Below, piece by piece: positions 42,144-47,891 of a stretch of DNA of 64,000 nucleotides. The notes beneath the pieces were generated by a model. It was not told where the DNA came from. It worked only from the letters and a program-made list of their open reading frames with translations, and did not search any database. Each line of letters begins with the position of its first letter. Within the stretch, counting starts at the first letter, position 1. Source of the DNA: a virus; the IMG/VR virus record IMGVR_UViG_3300009509_000706, positions 1 to 64,000 of that record; one strand, 5' to 3'. The translations under genes were made by a program, and so were the position numbers.

Positions 42144-42353
42144 CTATTTATTGGCTGCTTCACACCTTTTGCAAATATCCACCGGCCTACTTTGATACTT
42201 GATGTGCCTAAAATGCTTTCGGGGCAACTCTTTGTGGCAGCGATCGCAGACCCATCGGCCACGACGTGCGTGTCGGTGGGCGTATATCTCACGTACTTGC
42301 TGTACGATTGAATTTGGCTCACGGATGAATCTGGGTGGGATTTTCTTTACCAT
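42144..42353 (-). CDS. Zinc-finger protein
   Basis: 69 residues. WVCDRCHKELPRKHFR and DICKRCEAA form a treble-clef-like C-x2-C...C-x2-C site in a basic protein. The leader TTTTGTTTTAGGAAAGG matches the leaders of the genes at 42929, 43315 and 45089. A DNA or RNA contact role is plausible only. Confidence 0.6.
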   Translation of the reverse strand: MVKKIPPRFIREPNSIVQQVREIYAHRHARRGRWVCDRCHKELPRKHFRHIKYQSRPVDICKRCEAANK

Positions 42354-42401
42354 TTATAACCTTTCCTAAAACAAAATCACCTGCTCTGTTCGCATCTTGA
42401 A

Positions 42402-42929
42402 TCAATAGTTACTATTACTAATTCCATATTCATAACCGCATACTACGCAGAGCCATTCTTCGTCCCAACTCATCGGCATACCGCCAAATTCCATTGCCGC
42501 GCCAGGGTTATAATGGGCTTCTCCAATTGATAAGATAGCATGTTTGTCAGAATCACAGCGCGGGCATTGATAGGGCCATTGCCAGAATTTTTCATGCCCG
42601 CACTCCACGCAGGAAAAGAATCTGTCTGGTAATTTGTCGGCTGACAGTGGCTCATTGCAATATGTACGCCCAGGAGCATTCATGGTCAAGCTATCACAGC
42701 CGCTACACCAAGAATATTTGCCCAGTGCTTTGCCAAGTTGCTCTTCTTTGAGTTCCCCAATACCTTCAATTTCTACGTCAAGGCGAGTATTGCATTTGGG
42801 ACACTGAATCGGCGTAGCTTCTATGCCATAATCAGGCCATGTATATCCGCAGGCTGCACACTCATAATCAGAGCCGTGACCTATATCCAGTTCACTATAT
42901 TGTGTGGAAGCATTGACAATCCTAAACAT
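42402..42929 (-). CDS. Multi-zinc-ribbon protein
   Basis: 175 residues with at least four CxxC pairs: ECAACGYTW, QCPKCNTR, WCSGCDSL, SCVECGHEK, QCPRCDSD and LCVVCGYEY, which combine into three ribbons in tandem. Such serial ribbons resemble rubredoxin-like or RNA-polymerase-associated modules. Preceded by the shared GTTTTAGGAAAGGATAAGGCG leader. Function unknown. Confidence 0.65.
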   Translation of the reverse strand: MFRIVNASTQYSELDIGHGSDYECAACGYTWPDYGIEATPIQCPKCNTRLDVEIEGIGELKEEQLGKALGKYSWCSGCDSLTMNAPGRTYCNEPLSADKLPDRFFSCVECGHEKFWQWPYQCPRCDSDKHAILSIGEAHYNPGAAMEFGGMPMSWDEEWLCVVCGYEYGISNSNY

Positions 42930-42973
42930 CGCCTTATCCTTTCCTAAAACAAAAAGTCCTTCTGTTCTATCAC

Positions 42974-43315
42974 CTAAGACGATCTTGCCTTGTCAACGAT
43001 AGATATGACGCGCGGGTCTGCCGTATCAACAAGGTCTGGCATATATCCAGCAGCGATGAGCCGCCAGCATGGCCCACTCTGATTCTCTGGTTTCTGATAA
43101 CAGTCAACCCAGTCGTCTGTCGTTTCTTTTATAACGTCAATGATCCAGATGTCCCCTTGACGCAGTGAGTTCCATTCTTGTACTGCTTCTTCAACAGTTG
43201 GGCCACTTTGATAATGCTCACAGTTTCCGCACCAGACTTTGTAACCGAGGGCATACTTGAATATCTCAAGGCTCATATTGTCACAAAAAATACAAGGGCT
43301 AAGAATTTCGCTCAT
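42974..43315 (-). CDS. Restriction alleviation protein Lar-like
   Basis: 113 residues from the ATG at 43315. PCIFCDNMSLEI...VWCGNCEHYQSGPTVEEAVQEWNSL (7-51) is the Lar family layout: two CxxC pairs and the E-A-x-x-x-W-N end. Lar proteins relieve type I restriction. The second half is a separate domain of unknown role. A long pseudoknotted leader precedes it. Confidence 0.6.
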   Translation of the reverse strand: MSEILSPCIFCDNMSLEIFKYALGYKVWCGNCEHYQSGPTVEEAVQEWNSLRQGDIWIIDVIKETTDDWVDCYQKPENQSGPCWRLIAAGYMPDLVDTADPRVISIVDKARSS

Positions 43316-43498
43316 CGCCTTATCCTTTTCTAAAACAAAATCACCCGCTTTGATCGCAGTTCCCCCAAACCATAAGGACTTTTGAGGGTAGCGACTCCCC
43401 CTTCTACTAAGGGGAACCGCGACCAAAACAGGTGATTCATTTTGCGCCTTATGGTATTTACAGCTTCCATTGTCAGGTCGCCATCCCGACTGCTGTAA
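43316..43498 (-). ncRNA. Pseudoknotted leader RNA, copy 2 (Lar-like operon)
   Basis: Minus-strand leader from the predicted +1 near 43496. A 5' hairpin (43458-43464 with 43492-43498, inner GTCG/CGAC) is followed by a long stem: 43411-43437 pairs with 43339-43365 over 27 positions, with four G.U pairs and no mismatch. A loop segment, CCTTATGGT in the RNA (43369-43377), pairs with ACCATAAGG (43447-43455) between the 5' hairpin and the stem, giving a pseudoknot. The stem ends about 8 bases before TTTTAGAAAAGGATAAGGCG-ATG. Confidence 0.6.
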
Positions 43499-43502
43499 GT
43501 TC

Positions 43503-43531
43503 ATTTTATCACGTTTCGCCAGAATTGTCAA
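43503..43531 (-). promoter_or_regulatory. Sigma70-type promoter for the Lar-like operon
   Basis: TTGACA (43531-43526), 17-base spacer, TAAAAT (43508-43503). Its 16-base core CGCCAGAATTGTCAAG recurs at 43703 and 45288. Confidence 0.75.
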
Positions 43532-43691
43532 GTAAGTATTTCTTTGAGAGCAATTTTCCATTGAGCTTGACAATGATTTCTGATATTGAGCAATCTTCTG
43601 GCGTTTCATCTGGTGCTGCTGCCCATGAACCTTCGAGCCAGTATAATAGGTCAATGGCTTGCTTGTTAGTAAGATAGATTGTTATGCCCAT
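43509..43691 (-). CDS. Small hypothetical protein
   Basis: 60 residues from the ATG at 43691 (GAGGTG upstream): MGITIYLTNKQAIDLLYWLEG opening and a LLDNSGET end, the latter encoded by the promoter repeat. Helical. Function unknown. Confidence 0.5.
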   Translation of the reverse strand: MGITIYLTNKQAIDLLYWLEGSWAAAPDETPEDCSISEIIVKLNGKLLSKKYLLDNSGET

Positions 43692-43702
43692 TTGCCACAC
43701 CT

Positions 43703-43718
43703 CGCCAGAATTGTCAAG
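43703..43718. repeat. Promoter-core repeat CGCCAGAATTGTCAAG, degenerate copy
   Basis: Same 16 bases as at 43517-43532 and 45288-45303. Here the -35 TTGACA is intact but the -10 position reads CAAATG, so promoter activity is doubtful. The TGA in the -35 is the primase stop codon. Confidence 0.6.
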
Positions 43719-44658
43719 CAACTGCCCTCGCCACTTTCATAAAGCCCCAAAAGTCATCAACCGAGCCGCCATACCTATAAAAAAATTCGTCGGCCTTGAC
43801 CGGCAGATTGACGACGCGCCCGCGTCCATCAAATAGTTTTGCCAGTCGAAAAGCCGACTCTATAGCATCTGGGTCGAGGGCTACGTAAACGACCTTTGTG
43901 GCCTTGAACTCATTTAGCCAGCTTCTCTTGAAAGAACGCTGACTCATGATTCCACAGTTTGGGATTCCATGTTGTGCCAAGACAATGCTCTTTTTCTCGC
44001 CCTCTACTACCACGGGATCAGGCCATTCGTTAATCAAATCGAGATTGAATAGTGCAACTGACAAGCCTGCCATGTGGGGCCGATATTTGTCTCCCCCATT
44101 AGCGCCCTTGATTCTGTGTCGGATATTGAGCAATTGACCGCCGTTTACTACGGGAATAGTATAGCTTGCTCTCCCATCATAGTCTGTTGGGCAGCGCGGG
44201 CAGTAGCCGAGATTGTAGCGGGCAATACTGCCGTCGTCAATGCCCTCGTTGTGCCACCATTCCCGCGCTTCTGGCATTCTATCTAGCAGGCGATTATAAG
44301 CAATGTGATCCTGGCAACGAGCCATCCGCTCAAGCGCATCGAGCCGTCGTTCGTGTTCTCGTTGCTTGCGCTCTAGCGCCTTGACTCTGGCCTCAAGCCT
44401 TACCTGTTGCAATTTTTCTGGTGACAGGCCAGCATCAGGCCAAAGGTCTTTTGGCTCAAGTCCCAACGCAGCCACGATAGCGTCAAAGTCGCAACCTGAG
44501 AAGCAATGGAGTAGCACCTGGCCTTGATCGCCGATGCCAATGGATAGAGATGGGTTATGATCGTCGTGTGCTGGGCAGCGGGCAAGCCACTTGTCTAGGC
44601 CATGTGATTTGACTGCTTCGAGTAACGATAGGACAAGTTCAAGAGACTGCATAGTCAT
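43714..44658 (-). CDS. DNA primase (CHC2 zinc finger plus TOPRIM)
   Basis: 314 residues from the ATG at 44658 (GCGAGGG upstream). The N-terminus has a CHC2-type zinc motif: ARCPAHDDHNPSLSI...VLLHCFSGCDFDAI. A charged coiled segment (about 80-110) leads to a TOPRIM domain: PVVVEGEKKSIVL (about 213-225, catalytic Glu) and YVALDPDAIESA (D-x-D). It would lay primers for the helicase encoded downstream. A separate helicase domain is absent. Confidence 0.82.
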   Translation of the reverse strand: MTMQSLELVLSLLEAVKSHGLDKWLARCPAHDDHNPSLSIGIGDQGQVLLHCFSGCDFDAIVAALGLEPKDLWPDAGLSPEKLQQVRLEARVKALERKQREHERRLDALERMARCQDHIAYNRLLDRMPEAREWWHNEGIDDGSIARYNLGYCPRCPTDYDGRASYTIPVVNGGQLLNIRHRIKGANGGDKYRPHMAGLSVALFNLDLINEWPDPVVVEGEKKSIVLAQHGIPNCGIMSQRSFKRSWLNEFKATKVVYVALDPDAIESAFRLAKLFDGRGRVVNLPVKADEFFYRYGGSVDDFWGFMKVARAVA

Positions 44659-44776
44659 GTATGCCCTCGCAATTGGCGCACTGATAAACTTCGTGCCTTG
44701 CGCCATTTTCTGCTATGTATTCATACAAAAACGATAGAAATGTATAGGCCTCACAGTGTGTACAGTAAGAGTGCAT
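44639..44776 (-). CDS. Tiny zinc-ribbon protein
   Basis: 45 residues: YCTHCEAYTFL and YQCANCEGIHDY give two CxxC pairs. GAGGAGC lies 7 bases before the ATG. Its end overlaps the primase start by 20 bases. Confidence 0.6.
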   Translation of the reverse strand: MHSYCTHCEAYTFLSFLYEYIAENGARHEVYQCANCEGIHDYAVS

Positions 44777-44786
44777 TGTTTGCTCC

Positions 44787-45089
44787 TCAAAACAAAAGCT
44801 CTTGCATTTTGTCACCATCGGCAAAGCCCGCGCCATGAATAGGGCAGTCGGGATTTGAAATCGGGTCAGGATTGCAATTGAGAAAATCTGCGCAAATGCA
44901 GCGAGCCTCTGTCATCCCTTTTTTGTTATGAAATAATGTCGGCATGGCTTCTGATTGCCAGTACCAATCTATGAGAGTCACCCAATCGCACTCAGTACAA
45001 TAATAGAACGTGATAAGCAACACCCTATTATTTACTGTAGCCTCAGTTACGGTTTTTTCGGCGTCTGCGCCACATTCTTGGCAATACAT
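44787..45089 (-). CDS. Zinc-ribbon protein
   Basis: 100 residues: YCQECGADAEK and YYCTECDWV form one ribbon; a second Cys cluster (RCICADFLNCN...CPIHG) resembles a second metal site. It is preceded by the TTTAGGAAAGGATAAGACG leader and a pseudoknotted RNA element. Function unknown. Confidence 0.6.
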   Translation of the reverse strand: MYCQECGADAEKTVTEATVNNRVLLITFYYCTECDWVTLIDWYWQSEAMPTLFHNKKGMTEARCICADFLNCNPDPISNPDCPIHGAGFADGDKMQELLF

Positions 45090-45267
45090 CGTCTTATCCT
45101 TTCCTAAACAAAAGCCCTAATGTGCTATCACCTGAGCGGTATCGGCGGCAAAGGTTTTTTGTGCTATACGTGACGCTCCGTATAGCCCGTTACCGCCCAT
45201 GTGATAGTCCACAAGGGCTTTTCCTTACCTTTGCCTAACTGTTAAAATAGGGGCGTCACTCCCTACT
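45090..45267 (-). ncRNA. Pseudoknotted leader RNA, copy 3
   Basis: Minus-strand leader from the predicted +1 near 45267. Long stem: 45110-45118 with 45214-45222 (9 bp), 45121-45123 with 45211-45213, 45125-45131 with 45201-45207 (7 bp), 45136-45141 with 45191-45196 (6 bp). Inside is a hairpin (45163-45169 with 45180-45186). GGCAAAGGT near the 5' end (45227-45235) pairs with ACCTTTGCC in the loop (45147-45155), 9 bp, making a pseudoknot. A further 7-bp match links the inner hairpin loop (45170-45176) to 45253-45259. Confidence 0.6.
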
Positions 45268-45273
45268 AACTCC

Positions 45274-45302
45274 ATTCTACCACGTTTCGCCAGAATTGTC
45301 AA
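45274..45302 (-). promoter_or_regulatory. Sigma70-type promoter for the zinc-ribbon/primase operon
   Basis: TTGACA (45302-45297), 17-base spacer, TAGAAT (45279-45274). The TAG of the -10 box is the stop codon of the helicase-methyltransferase gene. Confidence 0.7.
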
Positions 45303-47541
45303 GCGGAATACTGTCATTTGCAGACTGCGCTTCCGCCCAGGCAAACAAATCGAGGGAATTTACATCGCGCTCGACCATTTGCAGATTCTTGACGGCTACG
45401 TTGAAATAACTTTGCTTCAATTCTATGCCGATCCCCTTGCGTCCCATCTTGACGGCCTGGTAAATCTCTGAGCCAATCCCGGCGAAGGGCGAAAGGATCG
45501 TTTCGCCAGGATTGCTCCAAAGCGCGATACAGCGTTCAATTGTACCAAGTTGCAGGGGGCAGATATGCTTGTCATCATCCTCGGCGCGGGCAGTCGTATA
45601 TTGTAGGGTATCAGTTTCTCTGATTCCCCACCAAATCGGATGCGCCCATTCGATCCATTGATCCCGTGTTAACTCTCCGTTGGCTACGGGATTGATCGGC
45701 GTTTGATTCTCGCCAGGTTTTTTGAAAATCAGGATATAATCGCCAATCGCTGGCCTTGACCACGAGCTGTCTTTTTCCATTTGGACAAAAAGAAGCGCCT
45801 TGCTATGCGTGCGAATGGCCTGTGCTTGCGGATTCTTATCTATCGTGACTCTGCCGTGATAAATCCATCCGCGATCCTCAAAGGCAGCGATGACTTTGCC
45901 AGGGAAATCTTTAAGGCCAATATAGCCATCCTTGCTGAGCAGAGCAGGTACATCAGCAGTATGGACGGCGCAGATACGTCCAGGTCGCGTTACCCGCAGT
46001 AAATGATCAATGATATAGCCAAAGTGGATAAAGAAATCATCCGCATTGGCAGAATTACCCAAGTCACGCTCCGTAGGACTATATGTATACAAATCCATAA
46101 AAGGCGGACTGAATACGCTAAAATCAATGCTGTCAGTCTTGATTTCTGCCAGACGCTCTACAGAATCACCCAGCATCAAAGTCCAATCCTTGCCCTTGAT
46201 GGTATCAACGTTATATGTTTCCCCACCATCATTTTGTTCCGCCAGCTCATCTCTTTCAAAAGCCTGTACATTTTCGATGAGTTTAGTTGCCATAGTATTT
46301 GCCTGCTCCTCTTTTCTCATAATATTAGTGTAAATCTCTTGTTCTACATCTCCGAGTACAATGTGAACATTGACCTCTTCTTTTTGCCCGAACCTGTAAC
46401 AACGACGGATGGCCTGATAGTATGCTTCCCAGCTATCACTCAAGCCGACGAATATCATATTGTGGCAATTCTGGAAATTCATACCGAAGCCAGCGATCTT
46501 CGTTTTAGTAACCAAGACTCTTATAGTGCCATTCTGGAAGTTTTCTAACGCCTCAATCTTCGCATCAAGGCTATCACTGCCTTGTACCTCTACAGCATCA
46601 TGTATGGCTTTAGCCAGCGCCGCACTTTCATCATTCAGACCGCACCAAACGATCCATTGTTCGCTAGAATTATTGACGATTTCAGCAGCAGCAGAGACTC
46701 TATCTCCTATGGTTTCGCGTCTTATTTGTCGCCTATGCCCTATGCCCTTGAGACCAGTAAAAAACAACTGGTCTTCTGGGACATAATCTGTGGGGACGAA
46801 TAGTGAAAAGATATTTAGTGGGGGAAGTACGAATCCGTCATCGTCATAGCCGAGATCGGACGGCTTGCGTACTGACATGCCCCAACTGGCGAGCCAACGG
46901 TAAAATGCTTCTTCAGCATGGCCGCGCAATCGCCAGCCTTTGTCATCATGTACGAAAAAGGCGGCAAGCATATCGGCTCTGGTCATCACGCCTAGAAATT
47001 CGGCATGGTTGGCAATCTCTGCAATGTCATTCGGGGCTGGCGTTGCTGTACAACAGAGTCTTAGTTGCACATCAGAAAACATATCCGTTAGCTTGCGCCG
47101 CGTCTTGCCGTCAAGCCCTTTCAAAATCGAGCTTTCATCTAATATTACCGCGCCGAAGGCGGCAGGATTAAATCGCTCGATCATTTCATAATTGGTTATA
47201 TAGATTTGCGATGGGCTATTATCCGCCTGTTCCTGGCTGCGTACATAATAGACTTGCAGATCAATTTTCTGCGCCTCTCTTACCGTTTGTTTGGCTACTG
47301 ACAAGGGGGCAATAATCAATGTTCTTTTGCCAGATAACCTGGCCCATTCCAGTTGCATGAATGTCTTCCCCAGGCCAGTATCAGCAAATATCGCCGCCCG
47401 CCCCTTGCGCAGCGCCCAGATAGTCAAATCCTTTTGGAAGTCAAAAAGTAGCCTGTGTACTTCAGATTGTGGCGCAGAAATGCCGCACGTTTTTGCTTTG
47501 ATACATTTTGTTTTCAAGAAGGCTTGATAATTCATGCTCAT
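45277..47541 (-). CDS. SNF2-type helicase fused to DNA methyltransferase
   Basis: 754 residues. Residues 30-430 are a superfamily 2 ATPase: Q-region FDFQKDLTIW, Walker A DTGLGKTF, LDESS (DEAH-like), CTATPAPND (motif III), and late motifs AGFGMNFQNCHNMIFVGLSDSWEAYYQAIRRCYRFGQ. Residues 460-735 are an amino-methyltransferase: FSPPFMDLY (SPPY catalytic) and SPFAGIGSEIYQAVKMGRKGIGIELKQSYF (SAM-binding, D/F-x-G). The likely role is modification of phage DNA at adenine or cytosine N4, with the translocase scanning or remodelling DNA. Confidence 0.9.
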   Translation of the reverse strand: MSMNYQAFLKTKCIKAKTCGISAPQSEVHRLLFDFQKDLTIWALRKGRAAIFADTGLGKTFMQLEWARLSGKRTLIIAPLSVAKQTVREAQKIDLQVYYVRSQEQADNSPSQIYITNYEMIERFNPAAFGAVILDESSILKGLDGKTRRKLTDMFSDVQLRLCCTATPAPNDIAEIANHAEFLGVMTRADMLAAFFVHDDKGWRLRGHAEEAFYRWLASWGMSVRKPSDLGYDDDGFVLPPLNIFSLFVPTDYVPEDQLFFTGLKGIGHRRQIRRETIGDRVSAAAEIVNNSSEQWIVWCGLNDESAALAKAIHDAVEVQGSDSLDAKIEALENFQNGTIRVLVTKTKIAGFGMNFQNCHNMIFVGLSDSWEAYYQAIRRCYRFGQKEEVNVHIVLGDVEQEIYTNIMRKEEQANTMATKLIENVQAFERDELAEQNDGGETYNVDTIKGKDWTLMLGDSVERLAEIKTDSIDFSVFSPPFMDLYTYSPTERDLGNSANADDFFIHFGYIIDHLLRVTRPGRICAVHTADVPALLSKDGYIGLKDFPGKVIAAFEDRGWIYHGRVTIDKNPQAQAIRTHSKALLFVQMEKDSSWSRPAIGDYILIFKKPGENQTPINPVANGELTRDQWIEWAHPIWWGIRETDTLQYTTARAEDDDKHICPLQLGTIERCIALWSNPGETILSPFAGIGSEIYQAVKMGRKGIGIELKQSYFNVAVKNLQMVERDVNSLDLFAWAEAQSANDSIPLDNSGETW

Positions 47542-47707
47542 TTCTCCATTCTTATATTACTCTAGTTGTAAAATAAAAGGCCCTGATCCCCATGCCCGTT
47601 GCCCGCTTTGTTGTTAAAATCCACTCTCGCTGCCAGGCAAGAATGCGGCAAAACGGGCCGGGGGATCAAGGCCCTCGGCTAAAACCTATATTCATTCTTG
47701 CCTGGCA
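47542..47707 (-). ncRNA. Pseudoknotted leader RNA, copy 1 (helicase-methyltransferase gene)
   Basis: Minus-strand leader whose first bases are the predicted +1. TGCCAGGCAAGAATG (15 bases at 47693-47707 as RNA) is perfectly complementary to CATTCTTGCCTGGCA in the loop (47631-47645). The long stem pairs 47661-47673 with 47579-47591 (13 bp, one G.U) and 47652-47658 with 47594-47600 (7 bp). The order 5' segment, stem arm, loop segment, stem arm makes an H-type pseudoknot. The stem ends about 37 bases before the ATG. Confidence 0.65.
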
Positions 47708-47713
47708 TTCTCT

Positions 47714-47742
47714 ATTATACACCCAAACACAAAATCTGTCAA
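47714..47742 (-). promoter_or_regulatory. Perfect-consensus promoter for the helicase-methyltransferase gene
   Basis: TTGACA (47742-47737), 17-base spacer, TATAAT (47719-47714). The TGA of the -35 is the stop codon of the upstream 50-residue gene. Confidence 0.88.
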
Positions 47743-47891
47743 GCCCCAATCTGTGCTGCATATTCACGGCGCAACGCCTCAAGAATCCTGGTCGCTGTGC
47801 TTGCCCCGCAAGCCTCAACCTCGGACAGTGCGGCCTCAAGCTCTACCAGGTCAAAGTCATCTGGAATGAGCAATGTTAGAATCTCGCCCAT
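47739..47891 (-). CDS. Small helical acidic protein
   Basis: 50 residues: starts MGEILTLLIPDDFDLVELE and ends REYAAQIGA. GGGAG lies 6 bases upstream; ATG overlaps the end of the previous gene's stop region. Its stop codon is the TGA of the next -35 box. Unknown function. Confidence 0.55.
   Translation of the reverse strand: MGEILTLLIPDDFDLVELEAALSEVEACGASTATRILEALRREYAAQIGA

Follow-up and report, generated by a model that had tools for sequence, protein, structure and literature searches.

The stretch analysed here, hereafter the window, comprises 64,000 nucleotides (nt) of the virus record IMGVR_UViG_3300009509_000706 (positions 1 to 64,000 of a record of 67,465 bases), and its replication region carries three operon leaders of common build on the minus strand, L1 (43541-43315), L2 (45303-45089) and L3 (47742-47541), which precede the genes at 43315, 45089 and 47541, respectively. 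L1 is followed by a gene for a protein of 113 amino acids (aa) with a weak Lar_restr_allev match under the Pfam cut-off (42974..43315, minus strand), L2 by a gene for a 100-aa cysteine-rich protein (44787..45089, minus strand) and, next to it, a primase-like gene (43714-44676), and L3 by a gene for a 754-aa SNF2-type helicase fused to an N6/N4 DNA methylase (45277..47541, minus strand). A sequence-only reading of this DNA had proposed that the three operons share a consensus promoter, a 5' segment, a long hairpin and a D-B pseudoknot while differing strongly in sequence, and our analysis bears this out. The three promoters are the three top sigma-70 matches on the minus strand of 42300-47800, all with 17-nt spacers, namely, TTGACA-17-TATAAT of L3 (47714..47742, 12/12), TTGACA-17-TAAAAT of L1 (43503..43531, 11/12) and TTGACA-17-TAGAAT of L2 (45274..45302, 11/12). 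The 22-mer TTGACAATTCTGGCGAAACGTG is common to the L1 and L2 promoters (chance expectation 0), and an exact search for it in all viral contigs gave no match. A decayed third copy of this promoter block, TTGACAATTCTGGCGAGGTGTG, with 3 mismatches, is seen at 43696-43717; the copies all sit at the 3' ends of upstream genes and so also encode a common C-terminus, LDNSGE. The start signal TTTTAGGAAAGGATAAG, which the same reading had assigned to the genes at 42353, 42929, 43315 and 45089, is exact at 42929, differs at one position at 43315 and 45089 and at three positions at 42353, with five matches found against 0.18 expected; it is not common to L3.

In all three leaders the arms follow in the order A, B, C, D, and the A-C helix crosses the B-D helix (all arms on the minus strand). 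In L1, arm A ACCATAAGG (43447..43455) pairs with arm C CCTTATGGT (43369..43377), while arm B (43411..43444) pairs with arm D (43336..43366) over a span of 28 or more nt, and a U-rich tract with the ribosome-binding site follows at 43319..43340. The A-C pair of L2 is GGCAAAGGT (45227..45235) with ACCTTTGCC (45147..45155), its arms B (45191..45222) and D (45110..45141) form a duplex spanning 32 nt, and its U-rich tract and ribosome-binding site lie at 45093..45113. Arm A of L3 (47693..47707) begins at the predicted transcription start and pairs perfectly with arm C (47631..47645) over 15 base pairs (bp), its B-D duplex (47647..47674 with 47579..47604) has about 25 bp, and a U-rich tract lies 3' of D (47568..47578). 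The B-D duplex energies are -49.7, -42.5 and -45.2 kcal/mol for L1, L2 and L3, respectively. Two elements are additions to the earlier description, namely, the terminator-like U-tract after D and a third crossing helix, E-E', in which E precedes A. In L1 this helix is formed by GGGATGGCGACC (43476..43487) and GTCGCTACCC, the latter within a hairpin 3' of B (43386..43395); in L2 it is formed by GTGACGC (45253..45259) and GCGTCAC (45170-45176), the loop of a perfect 8-bp hairpin, P2 (GCTATACG/CGTATAGC, 45163..45186). No E-E' helix was found in L3.

All three structures passed the independent shuffle test. The crossing-pair scores are 81.5 for L1, 78.5 for L2 and 85.5 for L3, while the maxima among 1000 shuffles each are 57, 55 and 59 (means 33-36); the real score was reached by 0 of 1000 shuffles for each window leader and for each of six relatives. 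Moreover, a blind crossing-helix scan of both strands of the window returned the places of L1, L2 and L3 only, and the same scan of three shuffled copies of the window returned none. Since the shape common to the three leaders also recurs before replication genes of many other uncultured phages (see below), it appears to be an RNA switch of a kind not described so far, and not a product of chance. It might be argued that the repeats act in the DNA, as an origin, a cruciform or an operator, or are chance inverted repeats after all, and both their location in the replication region and their long complementary arms would fit such a role. Yet the ten window-type B-D helices contain 29 G.U against 5 A.C pairs on the transcribed strand, a ratio somewhat inflated by a segment scoring that favours G.U. 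Since a DNA hairpin would show no G.U preference, the transcribed RNA is the molecule under selection, and a DNA-level function was rejected on this ratio. The arms also lie always between promoter and start codon, in one orientation and in crossing order, and shuffled sequences give no match; we therefore consider a DNA element or chance repeats very improbable.

Relatives of the helicase-methyltransferase were collected, and crossing helices were sought upstream of their genes. Three other phages (L005, L030 and L325) have the same architecture in front of this gene, and the L005 protein is 71% identical to that of the window. The arms before this gene are unrelated to one another, being TGCCAGGCAAGAATG/CATTCTTGCCTGGCA in the window, TGCGGCGAGG/CCTCGCCGCA in L005, TTGCCAGATCGTG/CACGGTCTGGCAA in L030 and AGCGAGGCT/AGCCTCGCT in L325, and the arms of window-type leaders in general cannot be aligned by sequence. 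Similar leaders stand before other genes in L030, L033, L070, L072 (two), L315, L319 and L335. A descriptor consisting of the crossing helices, a U-tract and then a start codon gave 26 matches in 1.72 Mb, 23 of which are family members (the others are in L063, L064 and L158), and 7 matches in a further 0.83 Mb of loci, with none in shuffled DNA in either case. The layout thus recurs upstream of genes in other phage contigs. By blastn, the leaders of L057 and L042 matched nothing in annotated phages; a DnaB-like neighbour used as bait led to two loci only, both on contigs found earlier. The pattern GGCTTGGNNGCTAATATT matched L057, L091 and the L026 contig, plus the unrelated L092 and L094-L096. 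Two matches to known RNAs were seen on carrier contigs or loci: int-alpA RNA (RF02996), above its gathering score, at 4129-4194 of L028, a contig that also carries a leader, and anti-hemB RNA (RF02837), below threshold (E 3e-4), at 6359-6451 of L042.

The crossing-helix scan also led to phages, apparently proteobacterial, in which a DUF1376 or related protein is the first replication gene and whose leaders form a tight class. Its core pattern occurs in at least 120 stretches of viral contigs, and 42 distinct elements were aligned. The 5' half consists of a hairpin with loop A (UUGGCGG), E, B (19 nt) and hairpin P2 with loop E', and the 3' half of C (UCCGCCAA), hairpin P3, D (19 nt), 5-8 U, the ribosome-binding site and the start codon; D followed by 5-8 U is found in nearly all members. 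In the alignment, 97.3% of paired cells are complementary, compared with 78.0% after shuffling and 34-46% with partners slid, and 277 cells show double-sided changes against 80 after shuffling, with 26 pairs changed on both sides. E-E' is present in 42 of the 42 members, mostly with 5-8 bp (4 in L202), and own partners pair better than swapped ones. Within this set A-C is invariant, being part of the search pattern, whereas members found by other routes show covariation in it (GGUGG/CCACC, GGUCG/CGACC, GGCCG/CGGCC and GGUAG/CUACC). The proposal that a common architecture in diverged sequence reflects selection on structure is upheld by these relatives in many phages and by the strong compensatory change. 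The arms diverge freely because selection acts on pairing, not on sequence. Every invariant column of the tight class is paired or lies in the U-tract, which argues against a small-molecule pocket, and hence against a riboswitch of that type. In about half of the tight-class elements the B-D helix carries a mid-helix mismatch, often A.G or A.C (alignment columns 42-43 with 106-107), possibly for RNase III avoidance.

A covariance model of the tight class, R1, confirmed 72 of the 78 pattern loci. It also detected 15 members of divergent sequence (E below 1e-11) and matched one of the L030 leaders (4.5e-5) and L033 (0.015). L030 bridges the two types, as one of its leaders matches R1 and the other precedes the methyltransferase gene. 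Of the features of the tight class, the crossing A-C and B-D helices with D followed by a U-tract and then the start codon are present in L1, L2 and L3, and the link between the window and the tight class rests on this architecture and on intermediates such as L030. A scan of genome contigs with the DUF1376 alignment returned five loci of metagenome-assembled genomes only, blastn in annotated phages found one environmental phage only (as two records), and blastn in plasmids found none.

The R1 end lies 3-10 nt upstream of the start codon in 70 of 83 elements, so no promoter fits between element and gene, and every mRNA of the gene has therefore passed the U-tract. A -10 box lies 9-13 nt upstream of A in 54 of 81, which indicates that the RNA begins at the first hairpin. 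The downstream genes belong to several unrelated families (DUF1376, helix-turn-helix initiators, ParB-like proteins, endonucleases and small proteins; most of these family names are our own reading of the sequence), and mostly are the first of a replication module. Usually there is one element per record. A tyrosine integrase is encoded in 2 of 26 carrier records (28-71 kb), and the element was found in 1 of 399 Burkholderiales-order and 0 of 398 Pseudomonadota bacterial genomes; with so few integrases and almost no copies in bacterial genomes, prophage immunity is less likely to be the main role.

We consider the existence of this leader family well supported. As for its function, the sequence-only reading had suggested translational control by a phage protein, RNase protection or timed expression. 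In nearly all members the long B-D helix with the U-tract that follows it resembles an intrinsic terminator directly adjoining the ribosome-binding site; simple terminator scans miss it because of the long loop. We therefore propose, with moderate confidence, that the leaders form a so far undescribed group of phage leader RNAs, defined by architecture, and serve as a cis-acting gate on early genes; the mechanism is what we infer from the arrangement of the arms. The transcript would begin just before or at arm A (or E), fold via the crossing pairs A-C, B-D and usually E-E', and end its leader in the long B-D helix and a U-tract touching the ribosome-binding site of the first gene. Where the apical pseudoknots bring B beside the emerging D, the 19-32-nt helix would close before the U-tract and transcription would stop upstream of the gene. 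If B is not placed beside D, or is trapped by A-C in a loop that D cannot thread, read-through would occur and the gene would be expressed. In the tight class, where the B-D, P2, C and P3 helices abut without linkers, folding of the apex would place B next to D. The 15-bp A-C helix of L3 would be complete before transcription reaches D and would enclose B in a loop; as the 25-bp helix requires threading, A-C may there prevent the terminator instead.

Several points weigh against such a gate. Termination, read-through and switching are predictions from sequence, and L1, whose B-D helix has an A-U-rich base, would terminate only weakly. R1 has no match in the window at E <= 5, so the model does not demonstrate common ancestry of the window leaders and the tight class. 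The 3'-arm remnants that the sequence-only reading noticed before the genes at 42353 and 42929 are real and lack B, and indicate that the D and ribosome-binding region can occur without a gate: a D-like arm with U-tract and ribosome-binding site lies at 42933..42974 (minus strand; 82% identity to the D arm of L2 over 50 nt) before the gene 42402-42929, and a D-like remnant with ribosome-binding site at 42355..42383 (minus strand) before the gene 42144-42353. Finally, the close adjacency to the ribosome-binding site, with its fixed 3-10-nt distance to the start codon, also fits control of translation or stability without termination, in which the knot would shield the 5' end, or the accessibility of the ribosome-binding site would depend on a protein or on the C arm. 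Arm C is indeed complementary to the ribosome-binding region in L1, L3, L319 and L335 (permutation p 0.011 for some window-type leaders, post hoc). In L1 the ribosome-binding-site sequence ATAAGG is an alternative partner for part of arm C, and in L3 the first 8 nt of C can alternatively pair with TAAGAATG at 47547-47554. We also observed that this ribosome-binding region of the methyltransferase gene (47547-47554) repeats the end of arm A (AAGAATG), so that C (47631-47645) could pair with either, and that a copy of the arm-A end occurs likewise near the ribosome-binding site in L335, L319 and L1. A precedent is the leader pseudoknot of T4 gene 32, a phage replication gene, which is bound by the gene's own product, gp32 (PMC3014915), but that is a single short pseudoknot 67 nt upstream with no terminator-like end, whereas the helices here are much longer and recur before unrelated genes. 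Translational control would leave the G-C-rich helix and the 5-8 U of nearly all tight-class members unexplained, the C arms of the tight class show no complementarity to the ribosome-binding site, and no sequence element is common to all members for a protein to read; we thus regard this explanation as rather doubtful.

A serious competitor to the cis-acting gate, although we judge it fairly unlikely, is that the leaders act in trans as antisense RNAs, with a short A-B-C leader accumulating and its B pairing with D on other nascent transcripts, so that expression of the replication genes is stopped as the phage copy number rises or on superinfection. The c4 RNA of P1/P7 (RF01695) has the same topological scheme, as our crossing-helix finder showed for the P1 leader, being a phage-operon leader with a closing stem (A-C), an internal antisense segment (B) and a target (D) just downstream at the icd ribosome-binding site (PMC5320573), and P4 CI RNA stops transcription of replication genes in the leader by pairing with the downstream seqC (PMC4825925). 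A trans role would also fit the copies of D without B at 42929 and 42353, and the observation that B-D is wholly different in L026 and L057/L091 between nearly identical flanks, as in heteroimmune pairs. In the same comparison (L026 5481-5700), the RNA core (B, P2 and D) differs, and so does the N-terminal half of the initiator encoded downstream, while the C-terminal Phg_2220_C domain is common to the initiators; RNA core and protein domain may have been exchanged together. On the other hand, no second complementary site for B was found in carrier-phage DNA near the elements, each B having D as its one partner, the carriers mostly look non-temperate by the integrase and genome counts given above, and in the tight class B-D packs with P2 and P3 with no linkers between them, which fits pairing in cis. 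That second B sites, integrases and prophage copies are lacking weighs against immunity, but not against feedback on copy number.

The leaders also differ from both of these known systems. The C4 covariance model matched 0 of 16 records at E <= 10, the window's virus included. In addition, the annotated c4 target sites have 7-8 nt, compared with 19-32 nt for B-D here, the c4 target overlaps the ribosome-binding site and has no U-tract, and the c4 5' end is made by RNase P (PMC5320573), whereas the first arm here lies near the promoter. From the P4 CI immunity leader they differ in that CI is flanked by two targets, seqA and seqC, and acts in lysogens, while each B here has the one partner D and the carriers are mostly without integrase; our leader descriptor found no match in P4. 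IsrK of Salmonella Gifsy-1 resembles the leaders in that a promoter, a small RNA and a terminator follow one another, with read-through into the phage gene behind them (PMC4825925), but it controls an antirepressor, not replication genes. Rfam 15 gave no match in the window above the gathering score, and at E up to 10 the only matches were weak and unrelated; cmscan of the window together with the relatives' leaders assigned the leader to no known family. These results agree with the earlier statement that no described family has this layout. No such leader is described in the literature examined, and an unnamed entry may exist in one large published catalogue of viral RNA candidates that lay outside the comparison. 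Structured phage leader RNAs are a known kind, and it is the architecture that is new.

A further possibility, which we consider distinctly unlikely, is a topological race, in which A-C forming first would lock B in a loop around which D cannot wind, so that the terminator fails without any competing bases. If this is true, the leaders would make up an RNA class widespread among uncultured phages whose definition lies in topology, with sequence almost free, and the expression state of the early genes that they gate would be set by threading rather than by exclusive base pairing. For phages known mainly from metagenomes, the leaders described here add a large structured-RNA family that is absent from Rfam 15 and located where expression of the first replication genes begins, and the covariation supplies a secondary-structure model with three pseudoknots. 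Their position makes RNA-only timing of phage early genes testable in a simple reporter, and the near-freedom of their sequence points to a rule by which synthetic RNA gates might be designed.

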